From Lepidurus packardi (Eukaryota > Arthropoda > Branchiopoda > Notostraca > Triopsidae): DNA of 64,000 nt. A model generated the notes under the pieces. It was not told the origin of the DNA and did no database searches. It saw nothing but the letters and a program-made list of their open reading frames with translations. The stretch lies in contig JAKZAN010000005.1 in assembly GCA_023053545.1 (NCBI GenBank), positions 4,340,001 through 4,404,000 of the forward strand, in the 5' to 3' direction. Of the stretch, positions 24,746-55,000 are shown in pieces (the first letter of the stretch is position 1; each line of letters starts with the position of its first letter). The position numbers and the translations under genes were made by a program.

Positions 24746-25810
24746 CTATGTCCAGTACTGCTCCGATCCAACATCAACGCAATCGCTAAATCTCACAGTA
24801 TGGGAACTACCATCATTAAAGGCAAATACAACTTGTTCATTAGCATCAATAGGTCTACCAACGTCAAAGGCATAATAAGGATTATCTCCCCTGTGACCCC
24901 CTGCCTGCCCATTCAGGGTGGCTCCGGTAACGATCTTCTCGTTGGTGTTGAGGAGTCCGATATTCCTGTAGTAAGCATTGTTGGTCCCAGTTCCGGGCTT
25001 GTAGAAACACCGGTAACTTCCTCCAGCCAGAGGGTTCTTGTTGGTCATTCGGACTTGGCACCAGGCCTGTCCAGGGGGTTGGTTGTTGGTAGCGGTTGGC
25101 CTGAAAGGAATATTTATTATACATACTTTCATAATATAAAAATTGACCAAATTCAGGCGTCTTGAAAGGCTGGTCTTCACAGAGTCCACAGTTCAAAGTG
25201 CCAAGCACGTATGTGTTCTATGATATTCAATGGAAATTACTTACCAAGTATTCCGGGAATAGAGATCAAGGCCTCCTCCATAGTTTGAATTAGTGATGAT
25301 GATGTCAAGTGAACCGTGTCCACAGTCAATATTTAAGACGTGGCCACACAGATCAGGCTTAAACTTCAGGTGTCCCAGCTCCGCAATGTTACCAAGAGCA
25401 AAGGGGTTTGTAACTGCATAGCTCGCGGCCGGCAAAGCACAGGCGTCTCCACCTCCATTTTCATGCCGGGTAGCCAGGACATTAGAAAGAGTTCCAACAG
25501 AAGGAGACTGTGTGGATATTGACATTACTCCACAAACCATACTAGAATCCCCCGTGTCACGTGCATCGTTCTGCGATGCCCCGGTGTTTTTCATCCAACA
25601 TGTCCCGCCATTGTACGACGTCCAAGAGAAATGGGTACAACCGGAGGTTCGAGCACAAGTCCCGCCGCAATCGTATGATGAAACCCTGGCGTTAGTGAAG
25701 TCGCCACCATAGAAGTCGCATCCGAGCGCCCAGTTGTTGCCATTCCAGTTTACGCTGTGGACATGAGATATTCCGAAGAAAAGTAGCAAGGTGGCGAATT
25801 TCAAATCCAT
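24746..25810 (-). CDS. Secreted PAN/apple protein with barwin-like (double-psi beta-barrel) region
   Basis: Two exons (25245-25810, 24746-25100) join in phase to 306 aa. The signal peptide MDLKFATLLLFFGISHVHS has a clear hydrophobic core. Residues ~25-95 form a PAN/apple-like module with even cysteine spacing (ALGCDFYGG, CGGTCARTSGCTHFSW, GGTCWMKN, MVCGV). A second region follows: CGHVLNIDCGHGSLDIIITN, then GGGLDLYSRNTW. Its CG...C...D/N...GGLDL pattern resembles expansin, GH45 and barwin folds. The C-terminal region has WCQVRMTNKNPLAGGSY and FYKPGTGTNNAYYRNIG. It probably binds carbohydrate outside the cell (inference). I see no clear catalytic aspartate pair. The alternative is a lectin-like protein of unknown role. 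Confidence 0.75.
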
Positions 25811-28371
25811 ATTCTCCGCTTCGAAATTACTGCACCTACTGAGAAATTGAAGTCTGTGTAAAACATGGGGACCAAAATATTTTTTCGTGTTAAAAGGATT
25901 TCGTGCTAAAAGCATTTTTTAAAGCATTTTAACAGAGTGTAACTAAAAATTAAATCTTTTGACTGCCCACATGTTTTGACAGACTGTTGGGGCAAAAATT
26001 GGAAGACACAAATTTTAACTTAAGTCAGGGATGTTACTAAGGCTCTACAAACCCTTCCCATTGGCAGAGGGGGACGGTTGTTAAGATGACAATGTATTTT
26101 GTCGTTCAAAAAGTACTTTGTCGAACAAACCTCTTTTGTCGTTCATCCCAGGCGCGATTTTTTGTGTTAAGCGATTTTTGTTTCGTGTTAAAAGAAAACA
26201 AATGTATGAAATTACGTAGTATTTTGTCCGGACCAGAATATCATTTTGTGTTAACTGGTTTTACGCGTTAAGCGATTTTATGTTAAGCCGCTTAAGCGGT
26301 TTCCACTGTACTTTTATATAATTATGTATTAATTCCATAGGCCTATTTAATATGCTCGTTGCGTAATTTTAAAAATTAACCTAAGGATTTCTGTCAGTAA
26401 TTAGCAAATTTCTGTTTTCAAATGCTAGACGAATAAAAGACATGAAAATAATTTTTTGCTAATATTTTAAGCATATAATAAGCGCTCCTATTATTTTTAT
26501 GTGGATGTAAGGCGAAACATTCAAATTTGGAATGTGTAATATTAAGAAAACATAATTTGATTTATAGTCAAAAATTAAAATGTTTGTACCTCTTTTACAG
26601 CTGATTTATGGTAACTATATATCGGGACACTTGTGTGCAGTTAAGAAAAGAACGACTGCGACTTACTGGATGAGTTCGAGAAATGGCGGCCTTTTATATG
26701 GCAGCAATCGGGCGATGTGAGGAAAACCCCACAAGTCGGCGGAAACCTGATTGTTGGCCAAGGCAGAGCGTAAGTTCATATTTAACTTATTTTTCAAACC
26801 CGCTTCCAGGAAACCCAAATTTCCCATGTTTCGAAAATCTGAAACGTGTCAACGTGAAAAAGGAGCGTAAACAAGTAGCAAACTTTGTGCTCCAACGTAT
26901 CACAAGTCATCTTTGACCAGCCTTACAAAATAGCACTGATGGTCCCAAATATTTATTTTAAGTGTGAAGTAATAGTAGCTATGCTTTCTACCCGGTGTTA
27001 GATATCGTTACGGAGAAAAAAAACATTTCGGGGGGTTTAAACCCCCCAGGGTACGGACCTGCTTTCTACCCCTTGCTCTTCCTATCTGTGCTGCTCTCCA
27101 GAAGTCTTGGCTCAATCAGCTAGTTTACGCTATTATCACATAACAAAAAACGAACCAGGAAAATCCGCGAAGTTTCGCCAATATATTTTCCTAAAGGTAA
27201 AAAGCAGTGTTGACGCCATAGATATAGGTCTATTAACCATAAACTGTGTAACTATTACAAACCTATATACCTGTATGTTGATGTTGACTTTCTGAGCTTT
27301 ACAACAATGCTGTCCTCGGATTTCCCCATTGCAACGCCCAATAGAACTGCGGTTAATTCTTCGATATATAATGGCAAATCGAAGGGATGTGGAGGAACAA
27401 AGGAATATTTGAAAATGCTGAATGGAACACTATGTATCACTATACCTACTTGTTATAATTTATAGTCCAATTAATTATTCGAATTAAATCGGATATATCG
27501 CGAAGCAACATGAATGTATATCAATTTATTAAAATGTTACATTTGTGTTTAAATGCGGCACACCTAATTTTGCTAGAATATCAGCAATGTCAGAAAGCTG
27601 AACGTAAATGGCATTCAAACACTCAAACTTCTGAAGCTTAAGAAATTTCAGAATAAAGACAAATATTTTAAACACGCTGTATATTCCCTTATTAAAGCTT
27701 TTTAAGACCCACTTCAAGTTGAGGGGAAGTCTACCTGCGCTAAACTCCCGCTTGTAAAAAAAGTATTCGTGCCCTTGGAACGTGCCCTTAGGAAGCGGAA
27801 TCCAACAAGTTATACGTGCATGTGCAATCAAGCCTGTTCTGTTTCCTCGCAAACGTTTTGAACCTGTTTCATCACATACATACTTCACTTATAAAGTGAC
27901 AAAAAATAAAGATACAAAACCATAAGACTAAAACTTGTGTCGGTATCAATTTCCATCCGGGCTATGCATACTGGTCATGGAATTCAGACAATTCAGGCCG
28001 TATAGTTAACTTGCAGTTTGGTCTCTTTTTACCAGTAATTGTTCTGGTTAATAATAATTACCTGCAGGTATTTGGTAATAACTCTATCGTATTGTGGACT
28101 CTTAATATTCTGGACTGTTTCCAATTAATGGAGAGTAATTACTAGAAACTAATTAGTGATTCGAGACAATCTTGAACTCCTTTGTATATTTACGGTGAAA
28201 ACGAGCACACGTTAACAATATAAAGGACACTACTCACAATATTAAAAGAGGCAAAGTAATTAAGGCACTGATGTAAACCGTAAAGGGCAGAACGGGTGCA
28301 AGGGCAGTATGGCACATGTTGATAAAAAATTGAAGACTACTTGTACCGCTGATCCATTTCGCCTGTTTTCA
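25811..28371. other. Gene-poor stretch between the PAN protein and the ZNF474-like gene
   Basis: AT-rich, with no recognised gene. Repeated gtgttaagcgatttt-type units fill 26060-26310. A 119-codon minus-strand frame (27529-27888) ends in DIADILAKLGVPHLN, but matches no family I know. A 77-codon plus-strand frame at 26683 is also unassigned. Confidence 0.5.
26060..26310. repeat. Possible end of a pogo/Tigger-type DNA transposon or MITE
   Basis: Read on the minus strand from 26310, the sequence begins TACAGTGGAAACCGCTTAAG and continues with repeated CGCTTAACAC-like blocks. A CAGT terminus next to TA is typical of pogo-like elements. No opposite terminal repeat was seen, so only one end is supported. 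Confidence 0.4.
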
Positions 28372-53964: not shown

Positions 53965-55000
53965 TTACAATTTTTGTATCAACCAAATTTCATTCCTTCT
54001 ACCAAACAGTTTAAACGGCGAATCGTAACCCACTACGTAATAAGCTTGACCATCACTCCTAATAGTTGCACGATCTACTTCTGACAAATATCCCAGTAAT
54101 TTAACACGCTCTTCTTCGATGTTCTTGTCGTTAGCAAAACCTCCATACGTCCTAAAAAAGGAGAAAAAGAGAAGCCAAAGAAAACATTAGCAGCGAGAAC
54201 AGAAGTTACGCAAGCCTACGTAATTTTAATCGCTCGATGAAAACCATATCTCATTTCGAATATCAGTGGGATTAGCGCTAGAATTGTTGAAGTTATAGAT
54301 AGCCAGGAAATATCTTTGATAATTGATTTGGCGATCTGGAAACGATTGCTGCAACTCCATACCCAACTTAACTGCTTCTTCGACTAGAATCTCGTCTGTA
54401 ATTTCGCCCATAAAAGAGCTGGCATGCTCGAAATGATGAAATCCACCGAGGGATTGTATGCATGAAGAGCATACCTGGTAAAGATGGCCAACTCAGGCCG
54501 TTCTTCAATGCTGACGTCTGCTTCGTTCGGGGTGGGAGGGGAATCCTGAAAGGCTTCAGGAATGTAGAATGCCATAGAAAATGTGCTTTCGCAATTTGGT
54601 CCATCCCCAGGCTCCACAAAGGTAGTAACTGGAGCTGTCATCGGAATCTTTGCATCTAAAATAAGACTTATAGTTACTATTTGCTAGAGTCTCTAGTTTT
54701 CTATTCACACTTGCTGAATTATTTCCCGAAATATAGCCAAAAAGTTTCCAAAAGCAGGCGCTACTCGTTGACTTATATGTCATTCCTATGCTGCTGGTCT
54801 TCACCCATTTACAAGGCTTATAACGTCGTTCCTCATAGTTCTAAATTGTTAAAAATTTACATTATGTACCGCATACCATAACAGAACTTATACATAATAA
54901 TATATCTACTTACTTCAGTTCTCTTTACCACGGTATAAGAAGGTTTTTCATAATCACCTCCTGTAACGAAGTTCTTTACCGAGTTAAAAATTCCGGACAT
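53965..55000 (-). CDS. SOUL/HEBP haem-binding protein with two alternative last exons
   Basis: SOUL-family protein, which binds haem or tetrapyrroles in the cytosol. Shared exons: 54914-55000 (MSGIFNSVKNFVTGG start), 54711-54840 (KWVKTSSIGMTY) and 54475-54655 (IPMTAPVTTFVEPG, VSIEERPELAIFTR). These can splice to either of two homologous terminal exons in the same phase. The distal exon B (53965-54151) reads TYGGFANDKN ... YVVGYDSPFKLFG ... RNEIWLIQKL and gives 194 aa; it is the canonical form. The proximal exon A (54226-54418) reads SFMGEITDEI ... YFLAIYN ... RNEIWFSSSD with its own stop and gives 196 aa. Both end on the family RNEIW strand. I cannot tell which is used where; A may be a decaying duplicate. 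Confidence 0.9.

Follow-up and report, generated by a model that had tools for sequence, protein, structure and literature searches.

A candidate tandemly duplicated last exon, with a predicted hairpin at its splice sites, in a SOUL gene of Lepidurus packardi

In a 64,000-nucleotide stretch of the Lepidurus packardi genome (contig JAKZAN010000005.1, positions 4,340,001 to 4,404,000; hereafter the window), a SOUL/HEBP2-type gene on the minus strand consists of three shared exons followed by two candidate last exons, A and B. The explanation that we favour, and hold to be reasonably probable, is that A and B are tandemly duplicated alternative last exons of a HEBP2-like SOUL gene, with B as the default and A used conditionally or until recently. 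The last coding exon would have been duplicated in tandem; B would have retained a strong acceptor along with the ancestral sequence and would act as the default last exon, while A would have diverged faster, yet stayed under selection as the C-terminal part of a SOUL protein. Spliced, now or until recently, from the shared exon 3 donor, A would give a protein whose N-terminal two thirds are unchanged and whose helix and final hairpin differ.

Results

Two candidate last exons share one donor

The shared part of the gene comprises exon 1 (54914..55000), which carries the start codon (MSGIFNSVKNF...), exon 2 (54711..54840), which covers positions 14-58 of the SOUL profile, and exon 3 (54475..54655), which covers positions 59-116. 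Exon 3 ends in phase 2, with the AG of a split codon (...CAG followed by gtatgc), and this donor is common to both candidates. The divergent exon A (54226..54418) starts with C, which completes AGC (Ser), and the canonical exon B (53965..54151) starts with G, which completes AGG (Arg). Each of these first bases directly follows an AG, and each frame is closed by its own TAA, after 63 residues past the split codon in A and 61 in B. In A, in B and in the paralogue designated C2, the stop falls 5 residues past a conserved W. The introns measure 73 nucleotides (nt), 55 nt and then either 56 nt (to A, 54419..54474) or 323 nt (to B); 56 nt is within the span of 17 reference introns (55-323 nt). The 74 nt from the A stop to B (54152..54225) contain the B acceptor's pyrimidine tract and a CTAAT that resembles a branch point. 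All of these features lie on the minus strand. Because the spliced alignment of the gene used conceptual proteins as query, its GT-AG sites are confirmed rather than tested. The coordinates, split codon, acceptor AGs, frames and stops that an earlier sequence-only reading of this DNA had given were all rechecked in the sequence and are as claimed.

A and B are adjacent and homologous, have equal phase and carry their own stops, three features expected of tandemly duplicated alternative last exons. An open frame alone is weak evidence, as 880 of 13703 sampled 63-codon frames (training open reading frames and the gene itself left out) are also open.

Homology of exons A and B to the SOUL family

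Both forms of the protein cover positions 1-172 of the 173 in the Pfam SOUL profile (PF04832), and both score above its curated cut-off of 27 bits. By themselves, exons 1-3 reach 125.1 bits, and the score rises to 156.6 with A and to 187.9 with B. Exon A in gene context adds 31.5 bits to the match, and the C2 paralogue, at 149.8 bits, scores below the A form. Taken alone, exon B matches profile positions 117-172 with 47.6 bits, the same positions that A covers. Among Protein Data Bank (PDB) entries, HEBP2/SOUL (5gqq, 3r8j, 4ayz) is matched by the A form with E 1.7e-29, over residues 29-192 and across the junction, and by the B form with E 1e-41; HEBP1 (2hva, 2gov, 4a1m) is also matched, the best chain having E 5.6e-14 for the A form and 1.8e-24 for the B form. 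The score of the A-B alignment is equalled by 23 of 5000 shuffles of A. Judged from these comparisons, exon A is homologous to the C-terminal part of SOUL. The sequence-only reading had proposed two homologous, phase-compatible last exons, and this is borne out: the phase is equal and both exons match positions 117-172.

Exon A is identical to B at 19 of 59 aligned residues, to the C2 paralogue at 14 of 60 and to HEBP2 at 14 of 58, and exon B is identical to the C2 paralogue at 21 of 59 and to HEBP2 at 24 of 58. By these counts A is closest to B, by a small margin, yet has changed faster than B. The loop GYDSPFKLF of B reads GYDAPMKLF in the C2 paralogue and GYNSPVKLL in HEBP2; exon A is without this GY-x-(S/A)-P-x-KL loop and has three additional residues at its position. 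In the literature on HEBP1, this loop is assigned a role in haem contact. The sequence-only reading had proposed that the two exons give two ligand-pocket variants; the A form may differ in ligand or partner binding.

Searches of a prokaryote genome collection with the exon A protein and the B form, and of viral contigs with the A form, found no relatives, a result that is silent on conservation because these collections hold no animals. Within the L. packardi genome, a divergent SOUL-like gene on contig C5 (L009 2600-4100) has two in-frame stops inside its profile match, which are probably introns, and a second SOUL-like stretch was seen by eye after it.

Origin of exon A

Comparison of the exons makes tandem duplication of the last coding exon the likely origin of A and B, in support of what the sequence-only reading had suggested. 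A search of the genome (108.6 Mb, 344 contigs) for further copies of A returned only A itself at E <= 10; this excludes close copies only, because exon B itself went unreturned. The intron of the C2 paralogue at the corresponding site is only 97 nt long.

Alternatively, a second tandem SOUL gene may have lost its first exons by deletion and left exon A as its tail, the two last exons then coming to share one gene body. The final arrangement would be identical, and a partial tandem copy after the last exon of the C2 paralogue indicates that tandem duplication does occur at SOUL genes here. However, no remnant of exons 1-3 was found between exon 3 and B, either by DNA self-comparison or by a six-frame SOUL profile search (which is insensitive to such remnants, because exon A was missed too), and A and B are only 74 nt apart. 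We regard a second gene as an improbable source of A.

The copy at the C2 paralogue (L008 4041-4495 and 4510-4948) lies downstream of the last exon and is 92.5% identical over a 456-column alignment. It spans the tail of the last SOUL exon (coding tail ...GYDAPMKLFNRRNKVWYVKKQ-stop) and 3′ sequence. It was considered as a parallel case to exons A and B and rejected: if joined at the acceptor-like AG nearest to it, the downstream copy does not keep the phase of exon 3 and meets a stop after 8 residues.

Probable past selection on exon A

The neutral decay of exon B was simulated in 2000 runs per level of divergence, and a copy passed if it kept an open frame of at least 58 codons together with a SOUL score at least as high as that of A. 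At 0.1, 0.2, 0.3, 0.5, 0.7 and 1.0 substitutions per site, 948, 552, 379, 130, 13 and 0 of 2000 copies passed when indels were excluded, and 334, 91, 36, 0, 0 and 0 of 2000 when there was 0.1 indel per substitution. A and B themselves differ at 93 of 177 aligned bases, or about 0.9 per site by the Jukes-Cantor correction, part of this divergence being on B's branch. In a second simulation, which allowed no indels, 6718 tries gave 250 neutral copies that were free of stops and differed from B at 40-56% of bases. Two of the 250 match A's nearness to the C2 paralogue at codon positions 1 and 2. A's identity to the C2 paralogue was reached by 10 copies, to HEBP2 by 13 and to B by 43, and a single copy reached the identities to C2 and HEBP2 jointly while being no nearer to B. 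These controls presume that B is the ancestor and that mutation is simple. Because exon A is nearer to the C2 paralogue and to HEBP2 than copies of B that decay without selection usually are, it has probably been under selection at the protein level during much of its history.

Differences at the three codon positions were counted on protein-based alignments, which favour positions 1 and 2. They number 32, 30 and 46 of 60 between A and the C2 paralogue, 30, 25 and 46 of 59 between B and the C2 paralogue, and 28, 25 and 37 of 56 in the exon 3 control, so that the pattern for A and the C2 paralogue closely resembles the other two; between A and B (27, 29 and 37 of 59) there is a mild third-position skew only. 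This weak skew would suit a relic that was copied from B and has drifted unused ever since, as would the faster change of A, which shares 14 of 58 residues with HEBP2 where B shares 24 of 58, and the 130 of 2000 neutral copies that keep an open frame and A's score at 0.5 substitutions per site without indels. The pass rate falls, however, to 13 of 2000 at 0.7 substitutions per site without indels and to 0 of 2000 with indels from 0.5 upward, and the resemblance of A to C2 at codon positions 1 and 2 (2 of 250 copies) and to C2 and HEBP2 jointly (1 of 250) is seldom produced by drift. We consider unbroken neutrality the least probable of the explanations weighed here. The simulations weigh against an exon A that was never selected, not against one that was selected until recently.

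A predicted hairpin in the intron before exon A

The 56-nt intron between exon 3 and A is highly structured by folding. A predicted perfect stem of 9 base pairs (bp), one of them G-U, pairs the shared donor with the 9 bases preceding A's AG. The first arm (54467..54475) consists of the last base of exon 3 and the donor (GGUAUGCUC), and the second (54421..54429; GAGCAUGCC) lies directly before the acceptor AG. The predicted fold of the intron has an energy of -19.9 kcal/mol (z -3.59; 1 of 200 shuffles), whereas z was -0.97, 0.75 and 0.67 for three further stretches of the gene. Folding of the whole sequence between the donor and the B acceptor gives nothing unusual overall (z -1.11; 12 of 100 shuffles). 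Among 14 introns of at most 130 nt, the A intron is the most extreme (z -3.3; the next, -1.8), and 9 of the 13 others are less structured than their own shuffle mean. A search for a repeat origin of the structured intron, in which very common words were skipped, found only the intron itself, and such an origin was set aside.

Pairing between donor and acceptor is stronger in the A intron than in any other of 18 introns. A stem score as high as this occurs in 10 of 20000 composition shuffles and in 7 of 4585 random GT-AG pairs, although the odds are weaker than these numbers because the stem was picked after inspecting several folds. The same donor pairs with the A acceptor at a score of 21.5 and with the B acceptor at a weak 8, and it is predicted to lie in a local hairpin before the A acceptor is transcribed.

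As predicted, the stem may either bridge the splice sites of A or silence them. Bridging of a donor and an acceptor by RNA pairing is described, for distant sites, in a review (PMC11802352). In the mechanism that we envisage, formation of the stem would favour A or hold splicing back, and with the stem melted the strong acceptor of B would win. In its fullest form, a hairpin switch would direct splicing to exon A when formed and to exon B when melted, the two proteins would differ in the loop beside the ligand pocket and in partner binding, and one gene would supply both a carrier of haem and a protein that binds a different ligand or no ligand. We think it unlikely that all of this holds together.

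Splice sites and present use of exon A

Acceptors were scored with a matrix built from a small set of 17 introns, taken from EF2, RCL1, the SOUL gene itself and the C2 paralogue, with leave-one-out scores for the reference sites. The two introns that both gene models have in common, with A or with B, entered the set a single time, and the first EF2 intron, which lies in the start codon, is outside the set; two aligned stretches of a tyrosine phosphatase gene yielded no further reference introns. The B acceptor scores 10.56 (leave-one-out) and is among the strongest. B is likely the default last exon, because the acceptor of A is weak. The A intron contains a branch-like TTCAT, a loose motif that is present in most introns. 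A stronger acceptor inside A (54395, score 4.98) was rejected, as A would then be out of frame.

On sequence grounds, present use of A as a spliced exon is unproven, and a number of observations weigh against it or against the wider account given above. The A acceptor scores -4.36, the weakest of 18 (the 17 reference acceptors range from -3.88 to 12.33), and its score is reached by 53% of 7472 AG sites in the window. Exon A alone matches SOUL positions 117-172 with 19.0 bits (E 0.0016), under the curated 27, and it is unlisted in the six-frame SOUL profile search of the genome at E <= 0.001, in which exons 2, 3 and B are listed. Its codon usage is undistinguished: an equal or higher score is found in 25% of 6091 overlapping stop-free control windows, and exon B scores barely above A, so that codon usage does not discriminate and was dropped as an argument for A being coding. 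At the A stop, and overlapping it, is an ATTAAA that resembles a poly(A) signal (54230-54225, minus strand), with U-rich sequence following; it was rejected as evidence, as such a signal is expected near 15% of TAA sites. Neutral copies of low divergence can pass the simulation test (out of 2000, 379 at 0.3 substitutions per site and 130 at 0.5 when indels are excluded, and 36 at 0.3 when they are included), and these passing copies remain closer to B than A is. As to the stem, its length of 9 bp is reached by 94 of 20000 shuffles and by 70 of 4585 random GT-AG pairs, the mostly unstructured state of the real introns here can be read as a mark against use of the A intron, and hiding of the donor would slow splicing to B too, because B shares that donor. 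Finally, a recently silenced exon would look identical.

Such an exon would long have been a working alternative last exon, its acceptor lately weakened, and would now be an intronic relic with an intact frame. This history would suit its acceptor, the weakest of the 18, its ordinary codon usage, and its splice sites, which are predicted to be buried in a strong hairpin, unlike those of most of the 13 other introns tested. Yet the 64 codons of A are free of frameshifts and stops, the AG is retained at the homologous place, and the pyrimidine content of the acceptor (9 of 16) is inside the reference span (7 to 16). Retirement of this kind is possible, and we give it a minor share of our belief; an alternative last exon used conditionally, or until recently, beside a default exon B is the explanation that we prefer.

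Other features of the genome

Contigs C1, C2, C4, C5, C6, C21 and C38 contain many COX1-like fragments that are interrupted by TGA and other stops, several of them at 0.78-1.54 Mb of C4, a picture that fits mitochondrial DNA copied into the nucleus. Three other COX1 matches (on C52, C214 and C43) are free of stops and may be bacterial. The EF2 encoded in the window is closest to PDB entry 4v6w, fly EF2, among the 22 sequences listed, and the gene content of the window is that of an animal, perhaps an arthropod. Within the window, open reading frames at 24746-25918 on the minus strand give the impression, from their translations, of cysteine-rich PAN-like and expansin-like stretches.

Discussion

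The functions of SOUL/HEBP proteins are poorly understood, and for SOUL itself the roles of haem binding are described as not clear enough (PMC6321638). Two natural isoforms that are alike except in their C-terminal third would offer an experiment, already set up, on which part of the protein binds haem or partners.

Both the A and the B form resemble HEBP2/SOUL and HEBP1. The A form differs from HEBP2 in being without the GY-x-SP-x-KL loop and in having three extra residues there. The sequence-only reading knew of no switch of this kind in the SOUL/HEBP family. Literature searches agree with it: no title or abstract on alternative last exons in SOUL/HEBP genes appeared in full-text searches, whose coverage leaves most subscription journals outside.

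C-terminal swaps by tandem exon duplication are well known in general, and account for 77 of 236 human events (PMC9741552); the main text of that paper is without the words 'hebp', 'heme' and 'soul'. The arrangement described here is like those human duplications in that one of two homologous adjacent exons would be chosen while the remaining protein is constant; it differs from them in that the swapped part would be roughly the last third of a protein that is globular. Another comparison is with the 3′ variable regions of Drosophila PGRP-LC, pip and CG42235, where, as described in PMC9013439, a donor is likewise paired with a proximal acceptor. Unlike those regions, the L. packardi gene has a single local stem within a 56-nt intron, no second selector was found in it, it belongs to another protein family, and its pairing is predicted from sequence alone. 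The doubling of a last exon is of a kind already known, and the possible RNA switch is the unusual part of this gene.
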